Shown one piece after another: positions 519-54,628 of a stretch of 64,000 nucleotides of DNA. Source of the DNA: Tubulanus polymorphus. Lineage: Eukaryota; Nemertea; Palaeonemertea; Tubulaniformes; Tubulanidae. A program made the translations under genes and the position numbers. The stretch lies in contig NC_134025.1 of NCBI RefSeq assembly GCF_964204645.1, positions 23,962,001-24,026,000 of the forward strand, given 5' to 3'. Position 1 is the stretch's first letter, and the number at the start of each line of letters is the position of its first letter. The notes under the pieces were generated by a model. The model was not told the origin of the DNA, ran no database searches, and saw nothing but the letters and a program-made list of their open reading frames with translations.

Positions 519-3500
519 CTATTCGACAATTGACCAGGGCTTCCGACCTTCATCTCGCTGTTCAAACTACGAAGCACATATCAAACAAATCATAGGCATG
601 CAATGATAGGAATTAGAAAGATTTCGATTTTCCTGAAAAGTTGAAACGTACCGGTTTGGTGAATTGATCAGTGCATGCAAGACGGACTTTCTCAGCTGTA
701 GCCGGGCAATCCAAACGAAAATATCCAGATAAACCAGCATCAGATCTCGCACTTAGAATGGCCTTTTTAGAAGCACAGTATACACATACAGCAAGTAACA
801 TTGGTGGTTCTCCAACGCCCTAAAATACCAAACAAAGAGAACACCTAGATCACATTATTTTAACCAACTAACGATTGAATAGAAACTCAACCCACGTAAT
901 CGTAAAAACCCCCGATTCAATACCTTTGAGGAATAAATGGCCCTCGGATTTCTGGATCCTTTCAGAATTGTTACGTTATATTCGTTGGGTAGGTTTTTGA
1001 ATCGAGGAAGATTGTAAGATGCAGGACCAGTTGTAAGAACTTCTCCATTAGGTGATACATTCACTTCTTCTGTCATGTAAAATCCATAACCCTAAAAAAC
1101 AAATCTAATATTGTTTATTCTATACATCTTATATACTCGGTATACAATGATATTATGGTATTATAGGACCTGCATAAAGGCACCATCAATCTGACCAATG
1201 TCAATGCCTGGGTTGAGACTAGCTCCAACATCAATAACAATGTCTGTTTTCAACACCTGTAAAAGCCAAGGTACATACAACTAATAGTTTCCAACATCTA
1301 CGCTTAATTACTGGACATTTTTTATCTAAACCTATTTAGTAAATGGCTTTTCTCGGGTAAGAATTTCGTGTACCTTGTGTTCACCAGTCAAACAATCTAT
1401 TTCAACCATCGAGCATGCAGCGCCGTAAGTGAAGTAATCACAATGGCGTCCAACTCCTTTCTCCCAATCAAAATACACATCATCAACGCTGAGAGAAAAT
1501 TAATATAAAGGATATCGCATTCTGAAACACATCTATTCATTCTAAAAACAGTAATATGAATATTTGTGATTTACCTGTGATAACCAGTTGCAGACAGATA
1601 AACATTTTCAAGCCAAGCACTAAGGACCCATCCGTCCCATCCTGCATCAGGTTTACTCTCTTTGAATGGTTTCAGTCTATCCATTATAGTTTCACAAGCA
1701 TTCTATTTAAGACAATAGAAAATAATAATCAATTCTACACAAGGTTCTACACAATGCCTAAAACTCAGAAATTCAACTCCAAAATTGGATAGAAGGTATA
1801 CCTTGGTAGCCATTGCAATATAATCTGAACAGATACTAGCAGAGGAACAAATACTGTTTGGAATCTTGTCTGTGCTTACGTCCGTGATGTGAATTTTGTC
1901 CACTGATATCCCTAAAACACGACTAGCAACCTGTGAATACAAACAAGTGGACAGGAAAAGAATAACCCTTCAACTATCTGGACATATCTATTCAGAAATG
2001 GGATATTGGTCCTGGGAAATCGAGGGAATATTTATATGATGCTGGTACCTGTATTGCCTTCGTGTGGACACCCTGTCCCATTTCTACTCCACCATGAGTC
2101 AACAGAACAGATCCATCTAGGTAAACATGTACCAATGCTGCAGCCTAAAACCTCAGAACAATGAATTGTCTGCCAATACTTATGCATGACATCGATATTC
2201 ATCTATGTGATGTATAGATATCTTTAATCCTTATATTCAGGAAAATTTACGATTTTGTTTTTCATTGTAATCTACAAACCTGGCTAAGAAATTTTTCACT
2301 AAATCCATTTCCGTTCTTAGTTGGTACCACGGCAACTCCTCTTTTCTTCCATCTATTTTGACTTCAAATGCAAATGTATATTACGATATATTACAAACAC
2401 CTAATCGTACCGCAAATATTTATACATAGAAAATAAAATATATATGGATATCATTTGAAAGCTCAAAATAAGCAAGACATGAAATCGTATTGGTTGACAA
2501 TGATAAGTGGAACAATGAGCTCATTTGATTCCAACCACTTAAATCAGTATAGGTCACTACCTATTGAAACGTTCTACTTCTTTCTGTAAATCTTTGTATT
2601 TGCTTTGTTCCACAACATCTTTCCAACATCGATGCAACACTTTCCCATCTACTTCCATACCAAAGCAATCTGGGGCAACTTCTTTGTAAAGATTTATTTC
2701 CCGTATCTATAAAATATAGTTCTAGTTCTGAAGATGAATGATCAACGCTTATAATGAAAACAAACCAAAAACATCGATTAGTGAATTTTTACCTGTTCTG
2801 GTGTCATATCAAGAATGGAACTCATCTGCTCGATCCAACTCTCAGTAATAACGGCCGATTGTAGTCGACCAAATCCTCTGAATCCTGTGTTAGATGCCAG
2901 ATTTGTGCGACAAATTAGACCTTTTAGACGCATATTGATTGGCAAAATATAGCAATGATCTACATCTTGAATAGCGCATTCCATAACCTTAAAGAAAATG
3001 GCGCAATGGCATCAATTAAGATTTCTTCAAAATAAGGTCTACCGTCGATGTCGGAATGTGATGATTAGGTACTCGCCTGATTCGAAACATCGAGGGAATG
3101 ACCACCATTACAGTACAATAAAAGATCCAAAGCTTGAATCTTTCCCTCTTTTGTGAATGCCACCTTAAAGTAAAATACATTTTGGTAACAATATCTACTA
3201 AACCAAAATCTTCTATGTCTAGTCCAGTCAACAAGTTCATAATTGTATTTTTACAACACTGCGCAGTCAGTACCTTATACTTTCCTAAAAACGGATGACG
3301 TCTGCCAGTAATTCTTAAATCTTCAACTCTTTCCAGCGAACTGCGCACAGGACATTGTAATCTGTTGAAATTGAGTAGAAATTACATTGGTTAAAAAGCG
3401 TTTTCAAAGCTAAAGCGAATATATGTGGAAGCTAAACCTACTTATTAGCTGCAATCGCTGCAGTTAAACAAACAAGCGCATCTCTCGATTGCTTGCCTCC

Positions 3501-6500
3501 AAAACCTCCGCCTGAAAATTCAAAATTCAATTTCATTTCTTAAAAGAGATGCTTGATTCACAAAACCTTTTCTATGTGTACATACATACCTATTCGTTTG
3601 TGTTTCACAACAACTTTGTTTGATACCAAACCCAAAGCACGACACACATCAGTCTGAAGCGGTAAAAAAAGTGTACACAATACGCGGGTTAAAATACTAT
3701 CAATAGAATCCCGCAATATTAAACGAAAAAGTCCGAAATCTGCTCAATTTTGAATTTTTACGTTTCGACTGGTCACTTCCAGCCATCGTCAGGTGGAATG
3801 TATGTTTTCTCATTTAATAATAAATAATAAATAATAAATTTATTCCACAATAAAATTGCAACATGTCATAAAGAGATATACAAATATGAAATGTTTTAAT
3901 ATAATGTGGAGGAGATTAGATGAAGCCAATGAAGGCTTATAAAATCTCTAATCCCCTAGCATACACCGATTCACTCAACTCATACACACATGCAGTCATA
4001 CACCTTCACCCAACATGCACCCACACACGCATAGTCACTCAGGCGGTCAATCACACTATCTTTCATTCACTCTTACAATCTCATTTCATTTATTTTAGCA
4101 GATTTCGGAATTACGTTTTATTGTGAGATTCTTGCAATCACTAACATTTCGAGTCCACGATCAGACGTAAGCCGTTTTTTTCGAGCGAATACCTGTATAC
4201 GGCATAAATCTTGAGTTGTCGTATAGATAATCATTTCATCGTTTTCTTTCACTGGCACAGCAACTGTGGCATTCGTTTCCATGTAGAAATGTTCTTGACT
4301 ACCAGTGTGAAGTTCTCCTTCAACAATATAATCTGCAATGGTGAATGCTGCATCAACGTCACCCTTGTCCACTTTGTAAACTGGTTTGAAGAAAGACTTG
4401 TTTTCGATAGCCTCCTTATGTACAGAAAAGAAGTTTGAAATACGCTTTAAGATATATACATGTAATTTCAATATACCAATTCACGAGTGATTACCTCAAT
4501 TGTAACGATTGGTTTTAGCACTTCAAATTCCACGTTTACCAACGCAGCAGCTTTTCGTGCAATATCCCTGTTTTCAGCCGCTATTGCACCAATTATCTGA
4601 CCACAACAAGTTACAAACTTCGTAGCAAATAGTTCCTCATCTTTGACAACAGGGCCGAAATAATTTGATGCAGGTACATCGTTGTGATCAATGTATGAAA
4701 CTACACCATCAACATTGAGTGCCTCAGACGGATCTACACTGAGTATTTGTGCATGGGCATGTTTACTATACACATAAGCAATGAATAATTCGTCTGGAGA
4801 TCAAAATTAATATAATATTTTGAATACAAAGAATTTTCGATAGGTTTCTACGCCAGAATTAGAGAATTTACAGAAATTGCACTTACTTCTGTATGAAGGA
4901 ATATCATCAACATATAACGTCTCCCCAGTTGCATGGCAAGGATTCATGATCTGTGGCAGAGGTTTTCCAATCGTATCATGCGCTGACCCATCGACTTTTT
5001 CAAATATTTGACTTGCTTTCAACGGTTCACGCTGAAGTTCGCGTACAGCAGCTGACGAACTTAAATCCTATGGAACATCAGATAGTAATGTAATCAGTTC
5101 CATCGTTATTTGCATTTGGATTGATTTTTACATCATTTAGTTTCAATGATTGCTAAAGAGATCGCGCAAGATTCTCTTACTGTCATCAATCATAATTTGA
5201 CCATTTACCTACCACGTTCTCATTACTTTTCATCTGTATTGATAGATAGAATTTAAAGAAGAATCCGAGTACAAGTGAACGACGATATTGAACTGCTCCA
5301 CCAGTATTATCTGTACATGGTTTAATCTCATCAGTCAAGATTTTACTCAAACTCGACACAACAGAGTCACACAACTTCCTGAAATCAAAGTATCAAGAAA
5401 AGACGTTGATGAAAACAAAGAATATCTTATCAAACCCTTTATTCATTATTTATATCTATCCTATCAACTTTTCAGTAAATTTGCTCACGAATACGAGAAA
5501 AAAACAGGATAAATCTGATATGATGAAAATCTATGGTTAGACTTACTTTCCTACGGCTTCTTTCATAGTTTCACTGGCCAATTTGATCCTTCCATCTAAA
5601 CCACTAGATATTATACAGAGTTCCTGAATAATACTGGTATTTTTCTCCACAGCCATGCGAAAAACGGATGTAACTTGGACAGAATTTGAGGTGTAGACTT
5701 CAAGAAACTCATTCTGAAAAAATAAAAAGTGCTATATTACTGGAATGTTACTAACGCGTAGATATTTTCGCAATGAATATTCTATTTCATTCTGCAACAC
5801 AATTTAATCATCTTCCTTTACCTCATTTCCATGTGGGATGAATATCGATTTGATAATTTCGGTTGGTCTCAGTACAGAGTATTCTTTTGAGAATATTTTC
5901 TCGTCCAATGAAACCTGCCTCATTCCCTCTATTCCCATGCAAATGCGAATAGATTTCCATGCAAATGCGAATAGATAAAAGTATTTCAAATATAATATCA
6001 TGAAGGTAAAAACTTCTAATATTCTCTACCACGCCCATACCTGATGAGACAGCTGTCAATGTACTGCCACATGCCACAAGAATAGGAATCAATTCCGATT
6101 TATTTCTACATGAGATTATGTGACCACCAATAGTCTATGAAAATAAATTAACGGGACATGATGTTGAAAAAAAACTGCACCATCGATAATGACCAAACAA
6201 GGTCATTTTGCAACAGAACAGTGTATGCATTCACCGGTCATATTAAAATGGACGAGCTACTCACGGCGACATTTCTTAATTGTAGACTTAGTGACCCGAG
6301 TATCTTCTTTACAGCAATACATGACTGTCTTCCCTCTTGAATATAATCAGCGAGGCCATTAGGAAACCAATTATTGGATTAACATAACTTATTCCAGAAG
6401 TCCAGATAATACAGGCTATAATGTAAGATACCTTGAGTTTTCTCAATTGAGGATGAAAGTGCTGTAGAAAGCATTCCCAATGAACACGCCGCCCCGATGT

Positions 6501-8710
6501 GTATACCACCATCAGCAAACATAAATTCACAAAGATCTCGAATATGTGATACGGATACAAGTTGAACAATCGACTTATCGGGGTAGATCTTATTCTTCCC
6601 TAGAAAATGTACAAGTCCAATGTTTCTGAGACATTCTGCGAAATATTGAAATTGTAGAATATGGCTGCATTGTGCATTACAAAAACATACTGATATAAAG
6701 TCCTCCTCCAATGACTGAAGCATACGGAAACATGTCTTTGATTTTGAAGAGTTCACTCAGTGATGTTGGCCTGTACCAGTCAATCCGTTTTCCTTTACAG
6801 TGAAAAATATTTCGATCAAGAATATCAGATAACTGTAAAGAATGACGAGGAAACACCTTATAATATGTCATATCAAATTCAGGTTTAATCAATACCGGAT
6901 TAAACAGGGCCTTTTGTGCTTTTTATTCCAATACGCAATAAAGACATCTGAATCTACATTTTTTCTTATGGCCGAATTTCAAATATTTGAACATGAGACC
7001 ACTCACTGTACCTGCAGCTCATTTGGAAATATTGGTTCTTGTTCTGGACTATAATTTTGCAGTGTTCCCTCTATTAGATTAGTTGCCATCTGAAATGAAT
7101 GGTGCTAATCGAATCAGTTTCTTGTATCTTGTATCTTGTATGGATTAGTTTTCTTCATCGATATAACTACTTTGTGTCAACATAACAAATTAATTTGTAT
7201 TCAAAGGCTGCTTACATCATCAGCCTGGTCTACAGTGTTGTTTTTACAGCACTGGTCACCCATTCCACAGTCGAAATCCTAGAAAAATATGTGTGATGAT
7301 AATTTCAGAAAATGTTTGAAATACACAGAAAAATGTAATTCAATTCTTCGCGCAATTCCAAAAAATTCTCACCTTATCAGCAAAAGTAACAAATGCTTGG
7401 TAGATTGGTCTGTATCCAGTACAACGACACAGATTTCCTTGCATTGCATTTTCTATCTCAGAGATGGAAGGATTTGGATTATTCCTGAGTAATGCATACA
7501 TTGACATAACCATACCAGGAGTACAGAATCCACATTGACTGCCATGGTATTTGGCTATTCGTTCCTGCAGCAAAGATAGATAATAGCAACTAATCAACTA
7601 CCGTGTGAGCCCATACATTATGAAATCTCGAGTCAAGACAGAACCTGTATTGGGTGAAGTTTTTTACGGTTACCGACACCTTCCACTGTAGTTACTGTCA
7701 TACCATGCACCGAACCAATGAAAACTACACATGCTGGAACGGCAGAATGCCTGGATTTATAATAAGGAATCAAATCATTTTAACCTTCGTTTAAATGAAA
7801 TTATAACATTAGATTCGTGGCCTCAATCTGATCCATGTATTTCTACATAGATGTTACTCTACAAAACTTCACAAAAAAGATACACAATTTTCTTTTGATG
7901 TCGATCATATCTAGATACCATCACAGTACAGGCACCACATCCTGCTTGGCCACAAGCGAGTTTTGTCCCGGTCAGTAATACTGGATTTTATGGTATAATC
8001 AAGGAGAAATAGCTAGAGAAATCACGTTTGCTGCTTGAGCAATCTACCTCTCTAATTAATGTCTGGATGGGCGAGTAATGCATTTGTCAAGGAACTTGGA
8101 ATTCCAATCCTGCACAGAAGATTGTGGTATCCGCTTCCTGTTATTTTTGTGCCTCTTTTTACACATGCATGGTGCCGTACCACTTGATTTTATTCCCTGG
8201 TAGACATAATGTGGCATATAAATGCTTTATAAAATCATCAGAAAAAGTCCCTAAACTATGACAATTCTATTTCTTCCCTCTTCGTACGTACATGACTCAA
8301 CCTACAAATGATCAGACTATTCTTTGAAAATGCTAATAATTGATTTAATCGCGGATTTCCAATTGCTGATTAACTACATTGTGCAATAGTGGTGTGAAAA
8401 AACTGTTTTTTCCTGACTAAAATGAAATGCAATGACGTTGAAATTATATACGATGGGATACGATGTTGTCTATAATGTTACTTCAGCTTTTAGAAAGGAT
8501 ACGCCTATTTCTCAGGTACTGCAACAATGTCCATTCAGGATCAACATCATTATCTGTTATCTGTGGATATATTGCAATTCATGATTAATTACAAATGTCA
8601 TTTATATTATCTTCATCTTTTGGCGTATTTCGATTTCATCTATTCGCTATCAATACCTTTTTGCCGTTGACGAAAAACGTCAATACCTGGGTAGCATAAA
8701 GCGCAGCCAT
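519..8710 (-). CDS. Aldehyde oxidase-like molybdo-flavoenzyme, copy A
   Basis: The gene encodes a xanthine dehydrogenase/aldehyde oxidase family enzyme of 1308 aa (family about 1330). Exons, N to C terminus: 8657-8710, 8503-8560, 7884-7980, 7645-7750, 7373-7564, 7216-7278, 7012-7089, 6691-6832, 6432-6599, 6265-6335, 6041-6134, 5822-5928, 5547-5713, 5213-5378, 4887-5067, 4495-4793, 4193-4414, 3590-3653, 3442-3511, 3274-3361, 3077-3163, 2793-2987, 2561-2706, 2280-2352, 2049-2144, 1802-1930, 1575-1702, 1374-1488, 1170-1256, 924-1091, 652-819, 519-566. All phases agree. The order is two [2Fe-2S] domains (first CGQAGCGAC, then QCGFC and CRC), an FAD domain (about 215-410) and a molybdopterin domain. 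The FAD part resembles aldehyde oxidase (GGHIIS, DEKIFSK). In the active site, Q784 replaces the xanthine dehydrogenase Glu803, C862 replaces Arg881 and D866 replaces His885. The catalytic Glu is kept as E1241. I infer a cytosolic oxidase of aldehydes or N-heterocycles rather than of xanthine. The exon 21 donor appears to be GC. The start ATG lies 54 bases before the first donor, after a likely 5' UTR intron. Confidence 0.9.
3732..4109. mobile_element. MITE-like insertion with 13-bp inverted ends
   Basis: TCCGAAATCTGCT at 3732-3744 is matched by its exact reverse complement at 4097-4109. The 378 bp between and including them lie in the copy A intron between exons 17 and 18 (539 bp). The matching copy B intron (13034-13160) is only 127 bp, so the difference is explained mostly by this block. 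Inside are an AAT-rich run near 3815-3842 and a hairpin motif at 3762-3792. No open reading frame of note and no clear target-site duplication is visible. The superfamily is unknown. Confidence 0.5.
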
Positions 8711-9017
8711 CCTTTTGTGACTTCCGATTTCTACAATTACGGTGAAACTTTTGTTACCGGTATATTTTTCGAGTATTTACGTGTATTTAACTATTGTCAT
8801 ACAGGGGAATAGATATTTAATGGTCGATAATTTGATATACAATTACTTTTCTTATCCCATATAGTCTTAACGTATTTCACCTTACCTATAAGCCATGAAC
8901 TATTAGCTATATACGTCCGTGCCTGAGCCAAATAATTTTATATCAATTATGTAATTAGAGAATAGTCTTTCGATATAAGTAAATACGTAAAGTTACATAA
9001 AATCTAGGTCTACTCAC

Positions 9018-9100
9018 CACTAAATGTAAAAACCGTAATCACCGTTTTGTTCAGAGAATCCCAAACTAATTCCGCACAGCAGTTACGTAGAATATAAATG
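9018..9100 (-). other. Probable noncoding 5' exon of copy A
   Basis: Only the 3' edge (9018) is supported, by a good splice donor that has a counterpart in the same context upstream of copy B at 18139. The 5' edge given here is a guess. It would splice to the ATG-bearing exon ending at 8657. Confidence 0.4.
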
Positions 9101-9145
9101 TAATCCTGTCAAATTTTGAATGTAACTAAGGCTAAAAAAATGTAT

Positions 9146-9345
9146 ACCTTGTTTCTCATTTCTGCTGAGCTTAAAGGATAATCCGGTCGGCTGCCTATCT
9201 ACCTTGCACATCACTTTTCTTTAAACATGATCAAACTTACAATAACAGACCCGGCAGCTGTAGAAATAAACAGATAACAAATTGTTTTGCAGTTCACGTT
9301 AGTGACGCGGCCGATTAGGAGAAACAAGACGTAATACATTTTAGT
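9146..9345. repeat. Interspersed repeat R2, copy 1
   Basis: This is roughly 200 bp with clear similarity to 19698-19895 and weaker similarity to 48105-48170. Shared blocks include TTGTTTCTCAT or TTGCTTCTCAT, ACAATAACAGACC and GGCCGATTAGGAGAAAC. No coding capacity is visible. The edges are approximate. Confidence 0.55.
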
Positions 9346-9828
9346 TAAAAACGTCCACTATCAACGTCATTTGCATAATCCGGCATGTTCAACACATATG
9401 GCGCGATGAGCTAAAGTGATGTTTCAAAAATACGTAATACGAAATATATTTCAAAGTTAGTTCGTTTTTCGTTGTTTCTTTGTGACTGAGGATTGTTAAA
9501 AGGGCCCTAAAATCTCCTAAAAGCGTAGGTGGCTGGATCTTTGATACTAGCGGACCTGTTGCAAAGTCAAACACAGTAATAACATATTCGTGACATTCGA
9601 GTCCCGGAGAAACACTGGATTTGTCAGGCGAACTTCTGCATCAAAACCATTGAACGTGTCTTCCGTCTTTTGGATAGTTTCTGATAAGTGGGAATAATCA
9701 GTGAAATTTGCATTTGGAGATTGTTACTCTGATTTTTCGTCATCTGGAACATAAAGCTTTCCTCAGCTCGAAATAGTTAATAAACTGAACACTAAAAGAA
9801 AAAGATCACTTTATAATCATTTGAAATA

Positions 9829-9834
9829 TTTATT
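9829..9834 (-). promoter_or_regulatory. Poly(A) signal, second oxidase gene
   Basis: TTTATT on the plus strand is AATAAA on the minus strand, about 170 bases past the copy B stop at 10005-10007. Confidence 0.45.
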
Positions 9835-10004
9835 TTACATGACACGTATGAATAACACGTGGTGCATAAAATATGATTCATCCATGTATACATGTATATA
9901 TATATTATCTGCTTATACTCTAAATAATTCATTCTTATTAAGGTCAACCAAAGCATGCAACACACTAATGCAATTTGTTGCAACGTTCACCAATTTTGAC
10001 ATTT

Positions 10005-13000
10005 CTATTCGATAACTGACCATGGTTTACTTCCACCATCTTCTTGTTCAAACTTTAAAAAAGAAACCAACAAATTATAAGCATTATAACATTTGATCTG
10101 AATTCAAATCAAGGCACAAAACTTACCGGTTTGGTGAATTGATCAGTGCATGCAAGACGGATTTTCTCAGCTGTAGCCGGGCAATCCAAACGAAAATATC
10201 CAGATACACCGGAATCGGATCTTGCACTAAGGATGGCTTTTTTAGAAGCAAAGTAAATAGATGCAGCTAGTATAAACGGTGGTTCTCCTATACCCTTCAA
10301 ATATAAGTAAGTATAAAAATAATAAAAAGAATAAATAATGGTCAGGATTTCATTAAACAAAAGCTCATGCCATTGTAGTAGAAACTCCTATAAGTACCTT
10401 TGAGGAATAAATGGCTCTTGGATTTCTGGATCCTTTCAGAATTGTTACGTTATATTCGTTGGGTAGGTTTTTGAATCGAGGAAGATTGTAAGATGCAGGA
10501 CCAGTTGTAAGAACTTCTCCATTGGGTGATACATTCACTTCTTCTGTCATGTATAATCCATAGCCCTGAAAAACAAATAGTTTGTTACGCATGCATTCAT
10601 ATTGTTCATCATTTTCACTATAAATTGATGTTTTGAGATAGTACCTGCATAAATCCACCATCGATCTGACCAATGTCAATGCCTGGGTTAAGACTTGCCC
10701 CAACATCCATCACAATGTCTGTTTTCAACACCTGTAAAAAGTAACATGCAATATACGGTTATATAGTGTCCATGGTATTGTCGTACCTAACAGATATGCC
10801 TACAGATTGTTGGTATTATTCTACTATGAACTGCTTTATAATATGCAAATGTTTAGGAAGCTCCATGTATTGATTAAAGCTTGAGTTTGGTACCTTGTGT
10901 TCACCAGTCAAACAATCTATTTCAACCATTGAGCAAGCGGCACCGTAAGTGAGGTAGTCAAACCTACGTCCAGTTCCTTTCTCCCAATCAAAAGAAACAT
11001 CATCAACACTGAAAAAGTTTTTTACAATTCGGAATAAAGTTCAATCTATTCATTCCAAATACAGTAATGTAGTTGTTTGTGATATACCTGTAATAACCAG
11101 TTGCAGACAGATAAACATTTTCAAGCCAAGCACTAAGGACCCATCCGTCCCATCCTGCATCAGGTTTACTCTCTTTGAATGGTTTCAGTCTTTCCATTAT
11201 AGTTTCACAAGCATTCTATATAAGACAATAGAAAACGATAATCAGTAAGTAATGGTTCTACACAATGCTAAACACTCAAAAATGTTACTCCAAAATTGGT
11301 CGTTTTATGATAAAAGGTGTACCTTGGTAGCCATTGCGATATAATCTGAACAGATACTAGCAGAGGAACAAATACTGTTTGGTATCTTGTCCGTGCTTAT
11401 ATCTGTGATGTGAATTTTGTCCACAGATATCCCTAAAACATGACTAGCAACCTATAAAAACCATGAGATGAAAAACTTTTCAAAATCACCACATTCAGGA
11501 ATATGATTTTGAAAATGGGAAAACATGTGATTACTGATATTCACTGTACCTGTATTGCCTTTGTGTGGACACCCTGTCCCATTTCAACTCCACCATGAGT
11601 TAACAGAACTGATCCATCTAGATAAACATGTACCAGTGCTGCAGCCTAAAACCACAATAGATTAGTTACATTTCTCTCAATACTTGTACTTCTGTAGTAC
11701 TGGTGTATTATTATTTTTGAATACCTGGTTCATAAATTTTAGAGCAAATCCATTTCCGCACTTAGTTGGAACTACCGCAATTCCTCTTTTCTTCCATCTA
11801 TTTTGGCTACAAATATAAGGTACAAATACATGAAGGCATGTAGCCCAGGAGACATTGCTAAAATGCTTAGTTAGATATAAGCACTAACCTATTGAAACTT
11901 TCTATTTCTTTCTGTAAATCTTCATATTTGCTTTGTTCAATTACATCTTTCCAACATTGATGCAACACTTTTCCATCTATCTCCATATCAAAACAATCGG
12001 GAGCAACTTCCTTGTGAATATTAATTTCTCGAACCTAAAAGTATTATCATAATTGAAGGTAATAATCAACAGTAGATATTATAATGAACATAAGTATGAA
12101 TAGTGAATTATACCTGTTCTGGTGTCATTCCAAGAACAAAACTCATCTGTTCGATCCAACTCTCAGAAATAATGACCGATTGTGGTCGACCAAATCCTCT
12201 GAATCCTGTGTTTGATGCCAGATTTGTCCGACATACATAGCCTTTCACACGCACATTTGGTAATTTATAACAAACATCAACCTCCAGGACAGCATATTCC
12301 ATAACCTTTAGAAAACAGTCATCAGAATGACAATTTTTTGTTCTCAGAAAACTCATCAATTAATACAACACATGTAAGCTAGACCTCACCAGACCAGAAA
12401 AATCTAGAGAATGACCACCATTACTATACAGCACAATGTCCAATGCTTGAATCTTTCCCATTTTAGTGAATGCAACCTAAAAATATGAACTACGGTAATC
12501 TATTCTAGTATTATTGTGTCAAAAAGGTCTAATCTTGAGTCTTTTTCACTGGGTCATTAATGCATTGATGAACTGTAGTAAATATAATCTGTACCTTATA
12601 CTTTCCTAAAAACGGATGACGTCTGCCAGTAATTCTTAAATCTTCAACTCTTTCCAGCGAACTACGCACAGGACATTGTAATCTGTTGAGAAAACATCGA
12701 AATTGTTTACCCTGTATCAAATTTCAATTTGGATGCCTTGAAACACATGATAAGTAAGCAAATGTACTAAATTTAGTAGGTGCATTTACGATACACTTAC
12801 TTATTAGCTGCAACCGCTGCAGTTAAACAAACAAGCGCATCTCTCGTTTGCTTGCCTCCAAAACCTCCGCCTGAAAAACATATTGGCAAATGCATTTTTC
12901 AAAGAAATACAAAGGCTTACTGGTACTGATATCCAGTTATTATCAACTGATAATTCGTTTGTGACTGACCTATTCGTTTGTGTTTTACAGCAACTTTGTT

Positions 13001-16000
13001 TGACATCAAACCCAAAGCATGACAGATATCAGCCTGAAGTATTGCACAGTACATAGATTATAGTTCCATAACTACTTTTGAAGACAAGTTATATACTATA
13101 TTCACTTCGGATAGAACTGGAATATATAGTATAACAACAATGGATAAAATGTCACCAAACCTGTGCACGGCGTAAGTCTTGAGTTGTCGTATAGATAATC
13201 ATTTCATCGTTTTCTTTCACTGGCACAGCAACTGTGGCATTCGTTTCCATGTAGAAATGTTCTTGACTACCAGTGTGAAGTTCTCCTTCAACGATATGAT
13301 CTGCATCGGCAAATGCTGCATCAACATCTCCTCTGTTCACTTTGATAACTGGATCAAAGAATGAATCAGCTTCAATAGCGTCCTGTAGAGAACAAGAGAA
13401 GTTATTATTAAGTTTAGAAACAGGTACATTAATTCATGTAATTGCATTTAACCGGGACATTTAATGTCTCTGAACAAGTTTGTCCATATTACAAACATAC
13501 CTGAATGGTAATTATTGGTTTTAGCACTTCATATTCCACTTTTACTAACTTTGCAGCTTTTCGTGCAATATCCCTATTTTCAGCAGCCACGGCACCGATA
13601 ATTTGTCCGCAACAAGTTACAAGCTTTGTAGCAAAGAGTTCCTCATCTTTGACAAGAGGGCCAAAATAATTTGATGAAGGAACATCGTTGTGATCAATGT
13701 ATGAAACCACACCATCAACTTTGAGTGCCTCAGATGGATCTACACTGACTATTTTTGCACGGGCATGTTTACTATACACATAGGCGATGAATAATTCATC
13801 TGGAGGAAAAATTCAATTAAACATTTCAAATGCGAATTTAACTGGCAATGAATAACAATGTATGTGCAGATTAGTCCTTACTACTGTATGTAGGAATATC
13901 GTCAATGTATATGGTCTCCCCAGTCGCATGGCAAGGATTCATAATTTGTGGTAGGGGTTTTCCAATTGTGTCATGCGCGGGCACATCAACTTTTTCAAAT
14001 ACTTGACTCGCTTTCAATGGTTCAAACGGCAGGTCGTATACTGCACTTGCTAAACTGCTTGATTCCTGTATAAATAGATGATCAAAAAGATCTTAGTATA
14101 AAATGTCCCTATTGATGTTAATGTACAATCAGACTTCATTGACTTCAATAACTAACCATGTTCTTATTGATTTTCATCTGCATAGATAGATAGAATTTAA
14201 AGAAGAATCCGAGTATAAGCGAACGACGATATTGAACGGCTCCACCAGTATTATCTGTACATGGTTTAATCTCATCAGTCAAGATTTTACTCAAACTCGA
14301 CACAACTGAGTCACACAACTGCCTAAAATCATCAAAATATCAATCAAAACAATTATCATATGCAGGTAATATAAACAGAAATGTTATTTACTAAATTCTA
14401 TCTAGTGATAAATCTATGCTTAGACTTACTTTCCTACAGCCTCTTTCATAGTTTCACTGGCCAATTTGATTCTTCCATCTAAACCACTAGATATTATACA
14501 GAGTTCCTGAATAATACTGGTATCTTTCTCCAGAACCATGCGAAAAACTGATGCCACTTGCACGGAGTTTGATGTGTAGACTTCAAGAAACTCATTCTGA
14601 AAAAATAAAAACGGTACTGGATGGATATGGTTTAGGAATAAGGAATCTTTTTAAATCAAGATAATTTTTGATAGTTATATCTCATACCTTAGTAACTGTA
14701 TCTGTATAAAAAAATTGTAAGATTCAACGTTCTATGCATTTGCCTTTACCTCATTTCCGTGTGGAATGAATATCGATTTAATGATTTCCTTTTGTTTCAG
14801 CACAGAATTTTCCTTAGACAAAATTTTCTCATCAAATGGAACCTGCCTTATTCCCCCTATAACAAAAAATATAATGCAGATAAATAGAAGTCCATATCAA
14901 GGCCGACTATTGTTTTCGACATTATTCATTTACAACTTTCCTTCACACAATACATACCTGATGAAACAACTGTCATTGTGCAGCCACATGCCACAAGAAT
15001 AGGAATCAATTCCGATTTATTTCTACATGAGATTATGTGACCACCAATAGTCTATAAAAGTGTGAAACAGTTAGTGCAGAAGCGAACTTCTCAATACATT
15101 ATCATGTTCCCATACTGAGGTACTGGCAACTTGGTTTAAAATTGCAAGCGCTACTCACCGTGACATTTCTCATTTGTTGATTTACAGAACCCAGCATCTT
15201 CTGTATAGCAATAAACGACTGTTTTCCCTCTACAAAAGAAAAGACAGTTACTCAAAACTAAAAGTATTTACCATCATTTTATCATAACTCTAAAAAAGTG
15301 CATACAACTGTATGTACCTGGAGACTTGTCGATAGAGGATGAAAGAGCTGTAGAAAGCATTCCCAGTGAACACGCTGCTCCTATGTGCATACCACCATCA
15401 GTAAACATAAATCCACATAAATCTTGTATGTGCGATAGGGTTACAAGTTGAATGACTGACTTGTTAGGGTAGATCTTATTCTTTCCTATAGAAAATACAA
15501 AATTTTTTCAACTGCTTTCTACTAAGTGAAATTGTGTACAATTTGCACCTAGAGCCATCGTTCTTATCGCAGGTGGTTCACTATATACCGGTACACCCTA
15601 GACTTGAAAAAAATGGAAGACAGTACAAATACATACTGATATAAAGCCCCCCTCCAATGACTGAAGCATCCGGAAACATGTCTTTGATTTTGAAGAGTTC
15701 ACTCAGTGATGTTGGCCTGTACCAGTCAATCTGTTTTCCTTTACAGTGAAAAAGATCTCGCTCAAGAACATCAGATAACTGTAAAATCAAGTAACATAGC
15801 TAGGCATCATATCATATCCATTTCAGTCAAGGAGACGTTCATCAGAAACTTCCAAGCCCCACATATCACTTCAACATCCTTGATGACACTGTACCTGAAG
15901 CTCATTTGGGAATATAAGTTCTTGGTCTGGATTATACGGTTGCAGTGTACCTTCTGTTAAGTTAGTTGCCATCTGAAATGAATACCGGTACGTCCCATTG

Positions 16001-17731
16001 AAAGTCTCAAATCAGAATCCATTATACTTGTTGTTGTCATTTATGATGAATGAAATTTCACAGCTTACCTCATCGTTTACAGTTTTATTTTTACAGCACT
16101 GGTCACCCATCCCACAATCGAAATCCTAGAAAAATATGTGTGATGAAAATTTCAGGAAGTGTATGAAATACACATGAAAAGTGTAATTAAATTTCATGTA
16201 ATTTTAAATTTCATGTAATTTCAAAATATTCACACCTTATCAGCAAAAGTGGCAAATCCTTGGTAGATAGGTCTGTATCCAGTACAACGACACAGATTTC
16301 CTTGCATTGCATTTTCTATCTCAGAGATGGAAGGATTTGGATTATTCCTGAGTAATGTATACATTGACATAACCATACCAGGAGTACAGAATCCACATTG
16401 ACTGCCATGGTATTTGGCTATGCGTTCCTGCAGCAAAAGACCGTAACAAATCAAGCAGCCTGATATCATTTCATCAAGAAATTATATCATTACGAAATTC
16501 CTAGTTAAACATACCTGTATTGGATGGAGTTTTTTACGGTTACCAACTCCTTCCACCGTAGTAACTGCCATCCCATGCACTGAACCAATGAAAACTACAC
16601 ATGCTGGGACGGCTGAATGACTGAATATTTCATAAGAATTCAAATCATATTTGTTGTTTAATTGGAGTAGAGTAGTTCACTGGTCGAATTTAAGATAACC
16701 ATTTATGAATATTCTAAGTAACACAGGATGTTAATATCTACAAATTTCCATAAAAAACAAAACCTCAGAGAAAGGATACACAATTTTCTTTTGATGTCGA
16801 TCATATTTGGATACCATCACAGTACAGGCACCACATCCTGCTTGTCCACAAGCGAGTTTTGCCCCGGTCAGTAATACTGGATTTTATAGTCAAGGATTCA
16901 AATGATAGCAAATAATTGAAATAAATGAGACACAAACAAAGTTATCAGCAGAAATTTTATCCTCGAAGTATGTAAATATCTATGACTAAAGTTGTCGTGA
17001 TATAGGACTTCGCAATTTCGCGAAAAGGTATATTCTTGTTTAGTTATCGGAATGATGAATGTCTGATTTGGGAAATTCATTCTTTTCTGATTTGAAATAG
17101 ATTTTAGATTTATAACAATTTTATAATTCATATATATAACACGCAACGTTGCGAAATGAACTGCTAAAGTGACAGGCATTCCATGAATTTCATGATGGGA
17201 TGAATTATATGTAAAACTTTAATACTATCTCATCGTTTTTTTAGGGTCATGACCTAAAGGTTATTAAATTTGTGCCAAACTGGTTCTATACTAGTTGTAT
17301 ACCGTTTACGCCCATAACCATAAAAATGTTGAAAAATGCATGTTTATACAAAAGCATAATGCTTATGATTTTTCTGGGTATATCAAGAATATATCAATAG
17401 CTATAGCGTTAAAATGATTTCCAAATGAAATGGAATTTCATCCTGTGTATGATAGAATTATCATTGCAAATGCAATTTTTCGCCTAAAAGCTTTTCGTTT
17501 TCTCATGAAAGTTAATTCAATTTTAGAAAGGATACAATTATTTCTCAGGTACTGCAACAATGTCCATTCAGGGTCAACATCCTTTTCAGTTATCTATTGA
17601 TGTAATCAAAATTCCCGATTGATTTGCAAAGATTATATATCCATAATGAAAAATTACTACTATATATATACCGGTACCTTTTTGCCATTGACAAAAAACA
17701 CCAACTTTTGGGTAGCATCAAGAGCAGCCAT
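10005..17731 (-). CDS. Aldehyde oxidase-like molybdo-flavoenzyme, copy B
   Basis: This tandem paralogue of copy A has 32 exons at equivalent intron positions and 1306 aa. Exons: 17678-17731, 17536-17593, 16780-16876, 16515-16620, 16236-16427, 16069-16125, 15895-15972, 15637-15778, 15318-15485, 15159-15229, 14958-15051, 14750-14856, 14430-14596, 14157-14322, 13882-14065, 13501-13799, 13161-13382, 12970-13033, 12801-12870, 12595-12682, 12390-12476, 12114-12305, 11889-12034, 11725-11797, 11550-11645, 11323-11451, 11088-11215, 10894-11008, 10645-10731, 10398-10565, 10127-10294, 10005-10052. All eight Fe-S cysteines are present. Q783 sits at the xanthine dehydrogenase Glu803 position, Y861 at Arg881 and E865 at His885, and the catalytic Glu is E1239. 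Tyr at the Arg881 position is also known in a mouse aldehyde oxidase. Copy A has Cys there, so the two enzymes may differ in substrate. Length differs from copy A only by small indels in exons 6, 15 and 22. I see no stop or frameshift. Confidence 0.9.
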
Positions 17732-33983: not shown

Positions 33984-35206
33984 GATGATTAAGTATATTC
34001 GGATTATTTAGACGAAACTCGAACTCGCAAACTCGATGAAAAATGGCGACCTGTTCAAAATTAGAAGCGATTAAAGTTCAGTTTTCCTAACCCGAATGGC
34101 TCGAAATGCGGTCAGTCCCGATATAGTAACTATCTCAACAGATCTACTTTTGCTCCAGACTTATTAAAGTTGGTTTTGGCAGTGCCTAATTAGTGCAATT
34201 AGTGATTTAATTACGAATGAGTACTACTCACTTGATGAGAAACAAACGTTGAGTCGCTGTTGGCACACGTGACCAAGCTTTGAAATTGCCATGTTTACAC
34301 CAGTAGATGGCGCCACTTGACGGCACTGCCTCGAGGATGCGTTTTTAAGCGGCGCGCGGGTGCAACTGACCACTGTCCGATAGCGAAATGGCGAAAAAAG
34401 GAATTATTTTCATTCGTCTGGGAGAAGAAAATCGCAAATAATTTACGAAAAAGAATATTGATTGAAAACGGATTTTCTGTGTAAGGAAAGCTCGACCCGA
34501 TGCCCGATTCAGTCTTGCCAGGCGGGCACCACGGCCGGGCACAGCTGCTGAGCAGGGTGTCTCAATGTGTTACCTAAAATTTATAATTGACCATTAATCA
34601 TCAATAATATTAACTAATTTTTGGGAGGTTAGGTTGGTTGACAAAAAGTACATAAGAATGGCCATTTTTCAAGAACAAAAAGCAAGAATTCTCAAAATTC
34701 TAGCAATAAAACTGCAACTTGAACTGTGCAATGAACTCTTTCGACGCAATAAATTCTTAGGTAGGCCTAAATTATTATAATTAAATTTAGTGTTTTAGAA
34801 TTAATGAACTTTTTATTTTATCAGTAATATTCTTAAACTCAAACTGGAATATGTTTTGGACTGTGAACTCTTAACCTTGGTTTTTACAGTTCCCCCCATA
34901 GCCATTCAAAAAAACGGTAGTGCTCAGCCATGCATGGGTTATCACTGCATTTCAATGTTCCATCCTTGAGCGACATCCAGGTCTACCAACCTTACCACCC
35001 AAAAAGTTTTCAATTATAGTTTATGAATGATTAATCTTAAGCTTTGGTAACACATTTGCTGAGGTATATCTTTCCTTTCCTCGACATGAACTGAAAAAAC
35101 CTATTTTCCCAAATAAGTGAAGCTGCACCGAAGATCTACTATTAAACAATTAAAACAACTAAACATTAGTCTTTGATAATGTTTGTATTCTATCCGACCA
35201 AAATGA
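33984..35206. other. Spacer upstream of the CCSAP-like gene
   Basis: This contains the promoter side of the CCSAP-like gene and the 3' flank of the 362-aa ORF. A GC-rich patch lies near 34340-34560. A minus-strand AATAAA at 34812-34817 could serve the 362-aa ORF. I see no convincing coding sequence. The open stretch at 34345-34542 (minus) has no recognisable content. Confidence 0.4.
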
Positions 35207-36295
35207 TTAGTAAGTACGGAACATCATAAGTTTAGACGCCTCTTTAGCCCAGAGATTTGGCTGGATTATTGTATCAATGTCTTGTCTTGGCCACACTTTT
35301 GCTACGTGAAAATCGCCCGGTTTATTCAGGACTCTAAAACGTAACTTTTCTACGGACGTACCTTCTCTGTCTAACGCGGTTGCAACAGGGTGTACATTTT
35401 TCATGACACTTCCGTACGAACGATTGGGCCAAGATTTTCTCAAATGGGAAAAATTATCCTGGTTTGTGGAGAGTGCCCATTTGTAGCCCATACCTGGGTC
35501 AGTCGTCTCGGCACCGGGTAGAATCGATGTTTTGGCGCGGTTATACAGAGGTCGAATCGAATAGTGATCAAAAGGCACTTTTGGTGCTTTCGCTTTCTTG
35601 GGTCCGATGTATGGCTCGTCGTAACATAGGTCTTCATCAATAGCATCACCAGTTTTAGAAGCCGAGGTGGCGTTTATATCAGCAGCTACACAAGTTTCAC
35701 CAGTTTGTTTCGTAGAGCTTGATTTGGGGTGCTTAGATTTTGACTGGCCACCTTGCGTTAAGCGTGATGTTGAAGCTGACTTAACGGTTTTTACGCCATC
35801 GCTTATTTCCCAATCTTCTAATTCGATTTTCGTGAAACTCTTCGGCGCCCGTTTCTTTTTATAACCTCCACTGTCTTCGCTAGAGCTAAATGAAGTCGAA
35901 GACACTTCTGAAATATTTGTATTTGACACATCGCCTGCGATAGCATTTCGGTGGCCCCTCATTCGCTGGAAGTTTCTTTTATTCAAATTCGTCGATCGAA
36001 ATAGATTTTTCTGCTGACATTTCGCCGGATTGTCCCATTTGAACAACGACCGATCAGGACGGATACCAGCCTTAAATAACTGCCTTTCAAGAATATCGAG
36101 GCGGACTTTGTCCTTTTCGGTATCTCTGTGTTTCATGCGCGCATCCTGCGGATCTCCACGAAGTTTCATCGATATGCTGTTGACCAAAACGTTTTTACGG
36201 ATGCTCGGAACGCTACCGTTGGCAGCTATTAATGCATCCATGCCGTCCCTACTTCTCCAGGCTGAACTTTCCGAATCTATACTGGTCCTATCCAT
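35207..36295 (-). CDS. Uncharacterised 362-aa protein, intronless ORF
   Basis: I do not recognise this protein. It is one uninterrupted reading frame of 1089 nt in a window where most genes are cut into short exons, and an in-frame stop precedes the ATG closely. Residues 57-90 form a charged, probably helical segment leading into RPDRSLFKWDNP. Residues about 115-230 are Ser/Lys-rich and likely disordered, with an SSTSFSSSEDSGG run. The last 120 residues are denser in aromatic residues (YKWAL, RKSWPNRSYG, KVWPRQD, PNLWAKEA) and look like the conserved part. There is no signal peptide or membrane segment. A strong minus-strand donor at 37174 (CAAG then GTAAGT) may end a noncoding 5' exon. Length and composition argue for a real gene. 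Confidence 0.65.
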   Translation of the reverse strand: MDRTSIDSESSAWRSRDGMDALIAANGSVPSIRKNVLVNSISMKLRGDPQDARMKHRDTEKDKVRLDILERQLFKAGIRPDRSLFKWDNPAKCQQKNLFRSTNLNKRNFQRMRGHRNAIAGDVSNTNISEVSSTSFSSSEDSGGYKKKRAPKSFTKIELEDWEISDGVKTVKSASTSRLTQGGQSKSKHPKSSSTKQTGETCVAADINATSASKTGDAIDEDLCYDEPYIGPKKAKAPKVPFDHYSIRPLYNRAKTSILPGAETTDPGMGYKWALSTNQDNFSHLRKSWPNRSYGSVMKNVHPVATALDREGTSVEKLRFRVLNKPGDFHVAKVWPRQDIDTIIQPNLWAKEASKLMMFRTY

Positions 36296-37468
36296 ATTTG
36301 GATCGGCGTATATTCAAATGAAAGTCACCCAATCGTAGAACCGCGTGAGCCAACAATAAGCTCCAGTATCTCCGGTATCCAATCCTTTAAAATATCGAAA
36401 AAACAATGCACTCTTTTTGAAATATTAACTACATATCTAAAAAAAAAGTGGAATTGTACAGATGACATTGATCAAAAGTTTAAAAAATCCCTCAGTTGAT
36501 AGATATCTTTGAAAATCGAAAGAAAATCGCTGAATTCAACTCACTTATCAAGATGGTCCTGTTGCGATTACAGAGAACTGTCCCCAGTTACGATAACATA
36601 TTCTACAGGTCAAACAGACACCGGACACCTATAATAACCACAACCAACTGTACAGTACTGGTGTATCGAAATTACAGAGCGTAACAGTTCATTATGGGAA
36701 ATGGAATTTCCTATGTTATTCGCAACAGCACAATATGTTTAGAAGTCACACTTCGTAATTTTCCCACGACAAAACCATTAAATTGATAAAATTTCTTAGA
36801 GAAATAACGATGACTATATGCAATAACATGTTCGCGTGTGGGGACTTCAAAAGTATATACACTCGTTGATAAGTCTCTATCATATTGATGGGGACAAAGT
36901 ATATATATATATTTACCCTAGATTTTACAAGAAAAGTGTGTTAGTATGTAAATGCCGTTTTATTTCATGCAGTAAACGTAAAAAGGTTTTATACATCGAA
37001 ACGCAGCGATAATTCCAAGACGTAGATCGTTTCTTTTTTACATTTGTATAACCGTTCTAAATGAGATTGAATTGAAAATATTCGCTTTTTTAAGAGCTCC
37101 ATCGTTCTGTATAGTTTTATGCATCATAATTCGAAAGCTAATCCCCCGGACTCCGGTTGCGATTTCAACTTACCTTGTGCGTCTCTGTACTGCAGGCAGA
37201 ATAAGCTTCGTCAATATGCTATGATCAGCCGCCTCCAGAAAGGTAATCAAATCACCGGCATACGTGATGTGGCGTAATGGGATTATAAACTTATCCGGAC
37301 CGTGGCAACACTAATGCACTGCTATCAACATCGTATCACGAAAAATCCAATTAGATTCGGATTACAACCGAGTGTTTGAGACATTAATTATGATATATAG
37401 TATTTTCAAATGATAATACGATAGGCTACAACGATATTCGCATTCCATGGAAGCAGGTCCACGGTTAA
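36296..37468. other. Spacer upstream of the 362-aa ORF
   Basis: The only supported signal is a consensus minus-strand splice donor at 37174, which may mark a noncoding first exon of the 362-aa gene. A short TA run is at about 36901-36912. I see no coding sequence. Confidence 0.35.
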
Positions 37469-37732
37469 ATGAAATGTCCCGACTTAGAACGTACTCCGAG
37501 GCGCAGAAATTTGTTCGTAAAAAAAGACAAAGGCTTTGCGGAGGAGACAGAGAATGGCGAAGCTAAACGACGGTTTAACATCGATTTCAATGAAGCCATT
37601 GAAGTCGAGCAAAAACGCCTTGTCCTAGAAAAGCAGATACTGATATCGAGGAGGCTTGGCTGGATGTGGAAAACTAGCGACAGTATACGTGCATTCGGAA
37701 CTGATAATCAACCAATCTTCTCAATCCTGTAA
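37469..37732 (+). CDS. Small hypothetical 87-aa ORF (doubtful)
   Basis: This is an ATG-started 87-codon frame, Lys/Arg/Glu-rich, with a predicted helical core (FNEAIEVEQKRLVLEKQ). AATAAA lies 40 bases after the stop (37772-37777). A second ATG frame starts at 37447 and overlaps it in a different phase for 38 codons (MSRLRTYSEAQKF within it). One frame may therefore be a leftover or the sequence may be a frameshifted exon. I do not recognise either product. It could be chance. Confidence 0.3.
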   Translation: MKCPDLERTPRRRNLFVKKDKGFAEETENGEAKRRFNIDFNEAIEVEQKRLVLEKQILISRRLGWMWKTSDSIRAFGTDNQPIFSIL

Positions 37733-37771
37733 CTGTAAATATTGTTATGTTGTACATGTTCTTTTCTATGT

Positions 37772-37777
37772 AATAAA
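37772..37777 (+). promoter_or_regulatory. Poly(A) signal after the 87-aa ORF
   Basis: AATAAA on the plus strand, 40 bases past the stop of the small ORF. It is the main support for a transcript here, but such hexamers are common in AT-rich DNA. Confidence 0.3.
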
Positions 37778-38591
37778 TGGACCACAACATCCGGGGGATG
37801 GACTTTCTTAACTTGAGATAATTTCTAAAATTTTTGTGCCTTTCCAAGAAGGGAATTTCTGATTTTTTTGAGTGCCTGACGTGAGCCACATGTATCCTAA
37901 ATCGGGCACTGCTGATCGAATATATTACAATCCATCCTCGTTAATAAATGTCACCAACATCACCAAGATACAACACAGTATAAGAGTATAATCGTGAATA
38001 ATTCAATTTATTCAACAACAACAAATAATACATTGTCGTAGAAAATAGTTTATAAAAATACATCTTCTCGTGTATATACATTATAATCTATATAAAGTGA
38101 AATTTTCATTCCCAACAATTAGTTCATGTACTAACAAAACAATATGTGATATGCGAAAATTAAACATTCATACTTAACAAAATTTTGGCAAGACAGGATT
38201 TTGTATTAGTAAGATTCACTATAATTCTATTCAAAATATTTTAAAAAAGGAAATAATAACAATGCACTTATGGTTCTAATATGGCCACTATATTTCGTTT
38301 GATAAAGGGTTTGCGTATAGCTCGAGGACTAAGACTTTGATATACTATCTGGTGATAAAAAAGCCATACATTTATTCGTTTCATCAATGTGGGAAGGTAA
38401 CTTCTTTTGAGAAGTATAAAATACACATATTTTCAATGGCAGTATTATTGAATTTGACACAAAATATCCATTTGAGAAAAGTGTGCAGGATCTTTCTGGA
38501 ATAAAGCCCTAACTTCTAAAAAAACCCCACCGCTAATTTGGTCGCACTAGCCAGTGCTATCTGAAGTAGAAATTATCTAACTAGTCTACCA
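37778..38591. other. 3' flank of the ankyrin-repeat gene
   Basis: This is probably the 3' UTR of the minus-strand ankyrin gene. A minus-strand AATAAA is at 38371-38376, about 215 bases past the stop. I see nothing else. Confidence 0.4.
38371..38376 (-). promoter_or_regulatory. Poly(A) signal, ankyrin-repeat gene
   Basis: TTTATT on the plus strand, read as AATAAA on the minus strand, about 215 bases beyond the stop at 38592-38594. Confidence 0.4.
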
Positions 38592-53500: not shown

Positions 53501-54062
53501 TATTATTTCAAAATTCCTAAGTTTTTCCCAATTTCCTTGTTCTGTGGGAACCATGACATTACAGCCTCAAAATCTGCAGTACTGTGTCATTTCAAATGAC
53601 AGTGAAGCTGGACACCAGTTTACTTACCCAATCAGCATCAACTTCACAAATACAGTTTATGGCGCCAATATTATCATTGTTCATGGCAAAGATCAAGCAG
53701 TTGTACCCGTCTTCATCTTGTATTTCTAAATCCGCACCGCTGTGTATGAATAATGATAACAGCGAAGCATTTTCGTAAAATACGGCCCAATGTACGGCTG
53801 TCCGTCTTTTTTGATCTTGTAAATCTAAATCAACGCCATGTTGCAACAACAATTCACAAACTTTTTCATGGTCTATACCGGTGTCTTCATTTTTCTTATA
53901 TTTTCTAGCTCCTTGCACGGCATGAATGAGAGCGGTGGCCTTATCCCTCGAGCGACAATTGATCTTGAAGTTAACTGACCGGGAATGTCTCGTTAAGAAA
54001 TCCTTCAATTCTTCCCATTTGCCGGAAAAGGCGAGTTTCAGCAATTGTTTCGATACATCCAT
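38592..54062 (-). CDS. Large ankyrin-repeat protein with acidic and coiled-coil tail
   Basis: Sixteen exons join in phase to give 1381 aa: 53628-54062, 50235-50428, 46978-47185, 46459-46714, 45911-46147, 45761-45835, 45264-45459, 44689-44822, 44396-44586, 42591-43884, 42346-42416, 41909-42180, 41338-41459, 41047-41241, 40517-40576, 38592-38797. Residues about 40-670 are some 16-17 ankyrin repeats (for example DGYSCLHLSVITGNAALLQLL, GLTALHCAASRGHPEC), so it is a protein-binding scaffold. An IQ-like segment (AAKTIQRNLRKVHR) follows near 679-692. Then comes a long acidic region with a run of six Asp, a Lys/Arg/Glu-rich coiled-coil region in exons 10-12, and a Ser/Gln-rich tail ending in a conserved-looking segment (TPDEYQEKIRYKKRNPYD). 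The repeat-plus-IQ layout recalls inversin, but I cannot name the orthologue. The exon 12 acceptor and the small exon 40517-40576 are the least certain. Introns 1 and 2 exceed 3 kb each. Confidence 0.85.
41567..41849. mobile_element. TTAA-flanked MITE (piggyBac-like) with internal palindromes
   Basis: TTAA followed by CCCTTTCAGTGC (41567-41582) is mirrored exactly by GCACTGAAAGGG then TTAA (41834-41849). That gives 12-bp terminal inverted repeats starting CCC and a TTAA target duplication, as in piggyBac-type elements. The element is 275 bp and noncoding. It lies in the ankyrin-gene intron between exons 12 and 13. Inside are three 19-bp palindromes of one pattern: 41680-41698, 41769-41787 and 41812-41830. 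Confidence 0.8.
48105..48170. repeat. Fragment of interspersed repeat R2
   Basis: AGCTGGCCGAGTCGAAC followed by GAGAAACAAGGTATCA and TTTTTTAG resembles the right end of the R2 copies at 9146 and 19698. It is short and diverged. Confidence 0.35.
48457..48535 (+). repeat. Possible tRNA-derived SINE fragment
   Basis: CGCTCAGTCGG (48469-48479) looks like an A box and GTTACGAACCCC (48519-48530) like a degraded B box, about 50 bases apart. The surrounding sequence is unusually GC-rich for the intron. No complete cloverleaf is visible. Confidence 0.3.
50429..53627. other. First intron of the ankyrin gene
   Basis: This 3.2-kb intron shows no coding sequence I can support. It contains degenerate repeat-like text, including GGGTCAGGACCCC-type stretches near 52090-52330 and a block of AATTCCCAA/GGGAATT motifs at about 53250-53560 that recalls the GGGAA-rich repeats in the usherin intron. 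Confidence 0.45.
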
Positions 54063-54628
54063 GAGTGAACACAGTGTTAAAAGGCACGAATGGTTTCACA
54101 TGACAAATCACCGACAACGCCGACACGCCGGCCTTAACAACAACAAAACAATCGAAAAATGCCATGCTGTCAGATCCATGCATGATTTACTACGGGAGGT
54201 GGCGCCATCTAACATTATTGCTTTAATCTACACATTTTGATCATAGAGTTTAGTTCTATCATTTATAAATCATACCCATAAAGGCAAAGCATAGCCTACT
54301 TCAATGGACCAAAAATTGCTGATTATAGTTTTTCTTCCTCCACTGAATTTAGTTACTAAGACTAAGTGGCACAATGAATAAAATCGAATTGATCGGACGA
54401 TACTCTCAAACTCGCACCATTATTACTCGAAAACTGGATAAGTCTCGTACCGCGAGCTTCGCATGACAATCGATACACGATATGCGTGATCAGCTGTGAC
54501 GGTCGTTGAATTATCAGAATTCGTGCTCATTGGTCAAATATAATGGTAAGTATCAATATGGTCTATTTAAAGAGCTTATAAGATATGACTGATATTCGGA
54601 ATGCTTTTACTTTTTTTCGTGCCGCAAT

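Follow-up and report, generated by a model that had tools for sequence, protein, structure and literature searches.

Three linked xanthine dehydrogenase paralogues with altered substrate pockets and eroded flavin sites in the nemertean Tubulanus polymorphus

Aldehyde oxidases (AOX) arose from xanthine dehydrogenase (XDH) repeatedly, according to the account of Rodriguez-Trelles 2003 relayed in PMC6321594. The E803V/R881M mutants of human xanthine oxidoreductase (XOR) lose purine activity and gain AOX activity (PMC3509653), in line with the original prediction made for the DNA described here. Introducing the reverse clamp changes into mouse AOX1 failed to bring back purine activity (PMC2671166); hence a substrate cannot be read from two residues alone. 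In mouse AOX3, activity is controlled jointly by the clamp and by Lys889, which is site 884 in the bovine XDH numbering used here (PMC3864932); E802, R880 and H884 of that numbering correspond to human E803, R881 and H885. Loop A, in turn, controls flavin reactivity in XOR (PMC3509653). In the papers we examined, the eukaryotic enzymes that derive from XDH and have taken on new substrates retain the flavin, to which they owe their oxidase or dehydrogenase character. The fungal nicotinate hydroxylase HxnS, an XDH paralogue with a new substrate, retains the Glu, the Arg and the residues for flavin adenine dinucleotide (FAD) and NAD (PMC5746545). The aldehyde oxidoreductase of Desulfovibrio gigas (PDB 1sij/1vlb) works with molybdenum and two 2Fe-2S clusters but no FAD, and passes its electrons to flavodoxin (PMC10223205). 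Here we describe two tandem XDH-family genes, A and B, in a 64,000-nucleotide stretch of the Tubulanus polymorphus genome (NC_134025.1, 23,962,001 to 24,026,000; the window), together with a third paralogue, C, that lies beyond the window at a distance of about 20 kb, and a canonical XDH, X, elsewhere on the same contig.

Judged from their sequences, A, B and C are intact, selected paralogues of X, the genome's one true XDH. A search of the whole genome (268 Mb) with two Pfam models of the molybdenum cofactor (Moco) domain found only these four genes. A and B were modelled by splice-aware alignment of protein to DNA, with bovine XDH as the first query and then each other; the models match the span 519-17731 given by the original prediction, with ends at 519 and 10005, and contain no stops or frameshifts. 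Gene A encodes two 2Fe2S domains, a remnant of the FAD domain and a Moco domain, and matches the Pfam families Fer2, Fer2_2, FAD_binding_5, CO_deh_flav_C, Ald_Xan_dh_C, MoCoBD_1 and MoCoBD_2. C (C1:23933500-23943000, L017) lies on the strand opposite to A and B and has 31 exons and 1305 amino acids, likewise with no stop or frameshift and with a shortened C-terminus (FDVIG). X (C1:7554000-7565500, L016), of 31 exons and 1330 amino acids, is 57% identical to bovine XDH and retains all the residues tested for the purine clamp, FAD and NAD. Amino acid identity is 86% between A and B, 66% between A and C and 46% between A and X. A, B and C resemble eukaryotic XDH (bovine 1fo4; X) in domain order, the eight Fe-S cysteines, Moco contacts and catalytic Glu, and have nearly the intron positions of X, at 44-47% amino acid identity. 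They differ from it in the loss of R880, H884 and T1010 (and of E802 in A and B), in lost FAD and NAD motifs and in the lack of part of loop A. The original prediction was right in its residue calls but missed C, X and the loss of the FAD and NAD sites.

The reference sequences were bovine XDH, human AOX1, fly AOX1 and fly XDH. Comparison with PDB entries covered the first three: bovine XDH matches 1fo4 over its full length, with zero differences over residues 1-979, the Moco domain of human AOX1 matches 4uhw throughout, and fly AOX1 matches 7px0 over nearly its whole length.

The catalytic core is complete in all three paralogues. The Fe-S cysteines (43/48/51/73 and 113/116/148/150) are present, and Q767, R912, F1009, E1261, Q1040 and Q1194 are retained, and the Moco contacts are whole; the earlier statement that the catalytic Glu and all Fe-S cysteines remain agrees with the alignment. 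The clamp pair 802/880 reads Q/C in A, Q/Y in B, E/L in C and E/R in X. The calls made earlier for A and B (Gln at the first purine site, Q784 and Q783; Cys or Tyr for the Arg, C862 and Y861; Asp or Glu for the His) hold in the spliced models aligned with bovine XDH. The broader claim that the xanthine-binding residues have been lost stands for R880 and H884, which are missing from A, B and C and kept in X, but Gln802 is not a mark of the family: C retains Glu802. Because of this, parsimony with X as the outgroup suggests that the loss of Arg880 and His884 predates the split of the three genes, with the change of Glu802 to Gln following later in the A/B line. T1010, V1011, S876 and P1076 are also altered; F914 is conserved in A and B and is Met in C. 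The residue at 884 is acidic (D/E/D in A/B/C), unlike the His of XOR or the Lys of vertebrate AOX. Altogether, xanthine is an unlikely substrate of A, B and C on the evidence of these residues.

The proposal that the pockets of the copies have diverged from one another also finds support. Among 18 residues commonly counted as lining the bovine pocket, A and B differ at 7, compared with 91 of the remaining 705 in the Moco domain (Fisher p = 0.006). The excess recurs between A and C (p = 0.005) and between B and C (p = 0.011), and the same 18-position test showed no excess of pocket divergence between X and bovine or fly XDH. The ratio of nonsynonymous to synonymous substitution rates (dN/dS) between A and B is 0.17 for the Fe-S, 0.23 for the FAD and 0.25 for the Moco domain. 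With such ratios and the excess divergence of the pocket, the changes between A and B are not chance decay.

The largest departure from XDH concerns the flavin. The identity of A, B and C to bovine XDH amounts to 65-68% in the Fe-S, 28-30% in the FAD and 48-49% in the Moco domain, compared with 69%, 43% and 52% for human AOX1. We defined as invariant the positions identical in bovine XDH, fly XDH, X and human AOX1, which gave 66 positions in the FAD domain and 247 in the Moco domain. A, B and C retain 33, 31 and 35 of the former and 206, 211 and 207 of the latter (FAD versus Moco, p = 1e-7 for A). FAD contacts altered in all three are T262L, K422T/S, R426V, N351H and G457S. A search with the alignment supplied the loci from which a conservation panel of 21 bacterial FAD subunits was drawn. 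In this panel, T262, R426 and N351 are each conserved in 95% and K422, G457 and P357 in 90%, and all are changed in A, B and C; D360, conserved in 100%, is Glu in A and B. Human AOX1 retains five of these seven residues, the exceptions being His at 351 and Arg at 422. A, B and C have lost the NAD motif FFxxYRK and do not conform to the other XDH motifs GNT, TASPISDLNP and KQxxRREDD either. E45 and G46, adjoining Fe/S II, are Gln and Ala. Loop A lacks six residues through an 18-nucleotide difference within exon 13; since this difference is internal to the exon and the flanking introns are placed as in X, an artefact of the gene models was ruled out. Pfam scores drop from 162 to 97-111 bits for FAD_binding_5 and from 94 to 38-44 bits for CO_deh_flav_C.

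In each domain with measurable dS, dN/dS among A, B and C is well under 1. With the tree topology fixed, the branch length of the stem of the three genes is 1.18 for the FAD domain and 0.45 for the Moco domain; their ratio, 2.65 (1.86-3.67, bootstrap), compares with 1.23 (1.01-1.48) for the other lineages pooled, with overlap in 0 of 100 replicates. This burst on the stem, followed by present constraint, argues that the FAD domain is not now rotting but was remade and then kept.

These observations lead us to favour, with slightly better than even confidence, the reading that A, B and C are hydroxylases of XDH descent that use molybdenum and iron-sulphur centres, have lost or rebuilt their flavin site and act on substrates other than xanthine. 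Such enzymes would hydroxylate aldehydes or N-heterocycles, a different one for each copy; the substrates might bear a positive charge or an amine as a partner for the acidic residue at 884. Electrons would run as usual from Mo to Fe/S I and Fe/S II, but the onward path to O2 or NAD+ by way of FAD bound in the normal manner would be closed; their exit could be an external carrier or a flavin sitting in a rebuilt site. Calling any of the three genes an oxidase is questionable, since the term presupposes a working FAD site, the residues of which are largely gone. The earlier suggestion that A and B may be independently evolved oxidases finds support in its first half, as the trees below favour an origin apart from vertebrate AOX, and not in its second.

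Several facts weigh against this reading. The FAD domains still score above the Pfam cut-offs for FAD_binding_5 and CO_deh_flav_C. G260, G350 and S359 are retained, as is D360 in C; therefore, some flavin binding is possible. Human AOX1, a flavoenzyme, likewise has His351 and Arg422. The FAD domain of insect AOX, also a flavoenzyme, has diverged as well, fly AOX1 having 26 of the 66 invariant positions, though with T262, K422 and R426. Because the FAD domain is still present, with its cofactor residues lost, A, B and C are not filed with the D. gigas enzyme, from which the domain is wholly absent, although that enzyme is a precedent for a family member working with an outside carrier. HxnS offers a parallel for the gain of a new substrate, as proposed for A, B and C, but unlike them it keeps the clamp and flavin residues.

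The recruitment of XDH paralogues and their divergence towards AOX-like enzymes are known; the loss of the flavin site in a three-gene animal set appears to be new. We found no flavin-less animal AOX or XDH in the open-access literature, and a prior description elsewhere is possible. The stronger proposal, which we hold tentatively and at somewhat less than even odds, is that a clade of animal XDH paralogues may have given up FAD and kept Mo/Fe-S catalysis. Its members would be full-length eukaryotic molybdenum hydroxylases that do not reach O2 or NAD+ by way of flavin, with Fe/S II feeding another carrier and a separate non-purine substrate for each copy. If true, three linked genes with intact Mo/Fe-S sites and an eroded flavin site would represent an evolutionary separation of the two halves of the enzyme and a natural experiment on electron exit from an XDH-type enzyme that lacks FAD. 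The natural clamp variants Glu/Leu, Gln/Cys and Gln/Tyr would form a series for finding the determinants of substrate choice.

The main competing explanation, to which we assign about a one-in-three chance, is that A, B and C are ordinary AOX-type enzymes, a lineage-specific set with O2 as acceptor and with FAD still bound, if in a divergent manner. The recurrent origin of AOX from XDH speaks for it, as do the recognisable FAD domains, the loss of R880 (plus E802 in A and B) and of the NAD motif, and states like those of human AOX1 at 351 (His), 427 (Gln) and 549 (Leu). Vertebrate AOX (human AOX1, 4uhw; mouse AOX3, 3zyv) is likewise without the purine clamp, the NAD motif and the four-residue cluster of XDH; B has Tyr at the site of Tyr885 of mouse AOX3, and C has Pro at the site of its Pro1015. 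Of the two clamp losses of animal AOX, that of Arg880 is seen in all three copies and that of Glu802 in A and B, C having kept its Glu. However, vertebrate AOX has Val or Ala at 802, where the paralogues have Gln or Glu, and Lys at 884 (K889 of mouse AOX3), where they are acidic. Both human and insect AOX have kept T262, R426 and G457, with Lys or Arg at position 422, and A, B and C retain none of these. Neither the loop A shortened by six residues nor the stem acceleration specific to the FAD domain fits this explanation well, and the trees set the paralogues apart from vertebrate AOX. Insect AOX (fly AOX1, PDB 7px0) comprises XDH-derived paralogues with a rebuilt pocket as well, but fly AOX1, 29-30% identical to A, B and C, retains the GNT, Lys422 and Arg426 of the FAD site.

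A common origin with vertebrate AOX, as members of an old animal AOX clade, is improbable, at perhaps one chance in five. Fly AOX1, on a branch of length 4.07, destabilised the trees, and they were built again after its removal. With a bacterial outgroup, the full-length tree then unites human AOX1 and bovine XDH at 98/99. In the unrooted Moco-domain tree, these two split from fly XDH, X and A/B/C at 97/97. The paralogues fall with or near X in two trees (76/87 and, in the Moco tree, 81/88). Forcing A, B, C and human AOX1 together costs 14-18 log units (p of the approximately unbiased (AU) test 0.07-0.09 without fly AOX1); the grouping is not formally rejected, with AU p of 0.07-0.23 across tests. 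His351, Gln427 and a few other residues are held in common, but the derived letters shared with human AOX1 stay near background (32% versus 21-28% in other pairs). Simple orthology to vertebrate AOX is disfavoured by the trees, the AU tests and these shared letters, and an origin independent of vertebrate AOX is favoured by the sequences, though not proved.

We consider it rather unlikely that the three genes encode purine or pteridine hydroxylases of altered specificity, acting for example on hypoxanthine and not xanthine, with Gln standing for Glu at 802. The sandwiching F914 and F1009 are kept in A and B, Glu802 is kept in C, and an Arg mutant of A. nidulans has no xanthine activity but retains that on hypoxanthine (PMC4334109). 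The alteration of R880, H884, T1010, V1011, S876 and P1076 all at once speaks against such enzymes, as does the intact XDH in the same genome; in their favour, pteridines are classical substrates of the XDH family. Degenerate or non-catalytic remnants, to which the eroded FAD site and the shortened C-terminus of C might point, are very improbable given three genes free of stops and frameshifts, dN/dS well under 1 and complete Mo and Fe-S sites; on the same grounds of reading frame and dN/dS, a pseudogene reading was ruled out. An allelic or assembly duplicate was likewise ruled out for A and B, with a dS of about 0.3 and diverged introns.

Exon lengths, and hence intron positions, are nearly identical across A, B, C and X; the copies are therefore DNA duplications of an intron-rich gene. 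One intron of A has a GC-AG junction (intron 21 donor, window 3075-3076), and X has two GC-AG introns. The introns of X also hold very long TA repeat arrays (L016 421-844 and 1171-1752). Gene conversion between A and C is seen in a block spanning A exons 13-14 (window 5213-5713) and L017 3591-4077, including intron 13, and this block carries the loop A shortening. A and C are 84% identical over 502 nucleotides including intron 13, which at 58% is their most similar intron (39% between A and B); their dS is 0.17-0.31 in exons 13-14, with most adjacent exons saturated. Milder signs of conversion occur in exons 3, 5, 29 and 30. The gap of about 20 kb between C and A has no other XDH-like sequence, and a tblastn search of the flanking DNA around the cluster yielded no further XDH-like copies. 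An open frame with weak Pfam matches to zinc fingers (L045 3583-5379) lies between C and A, so the cluster appears to be interrupted by an unrelated gene. The features of A and B are collected in Table 1.

Table 1. Positions of genes A and B and of their diagnostic exons in the window
Feature	Position	Strand	Description
Gene A	519..8710	-	32 exons, 1311 amino acids, complete XDH-family protein; ATG from 8710, TAG 521-519
Gene B	10005..17731	-	32 exons, 1309 amino acids, tandem paralogue of A, 86% amino acid identity
A exons 8-9 and intron between	6432..6832	-	First FAD loop GNTEIG changed to GGLYIR: N261G, T262L, G265R
B exons 8-9 and intron between	15318..15778	-	First FAD loop lost as in A
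A exon 11	6041..6134	-	Second FAD loop GGNIITASPISD altered: N351H, P357N, D360E
B exon 11	14958..15051	-	Second FAD loop, altered
A exon 13	5547..5713	-	167 nucleotides versus 185 in X; loop A (bovine 423-433) 18 nucleotides shorter; K422T and R426V; gene conversion with C in this block
B exon 13	14430..14596	-	18-nucleotide shortening of loop A as in A
A exon 19	3442..3511	-	Q784 at bovine Glu802 position (GGKQ starts A781)
B exon 19	12801..12870	-	Q783 at bovine Glu802 position (GGKQ starts B780)
A exon 22	2793..2987	-	C862 at Arg880, Asp at His884; GFRGFG, R912 and F914 retained
B exon 22	12114..12305	-	Y861 at Arg880, Glu at His884; GFRGFG, R912 and F914 retained
A exon 31	652..819	-	GVGEPP; catalytic Glu (bovine E1261) retained
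B exon 31	10127..10294	-	GIGEPP; catalytic Glu (bovine E1261) retained

Scans of the 64-kb window for tRNA genes and Rfam families found nothing. Beyond A and B, an open frame at 54826-55302 with a CxxC...HFLxxC pattern and no Pfam matches resembles a non-LTR retroelement tail. The minus strand over 35000-54100 holds an ankyrin-repeat exon recognised by Pfam (53592-54095) and, farther on, long, charged, low-complexity open frames, perhaps all parts of one gene. The plus strand over 56788-64000 carries laminin-EGF repeats (Pfam), preceded by an N-terminus that we take to be usherin-like.

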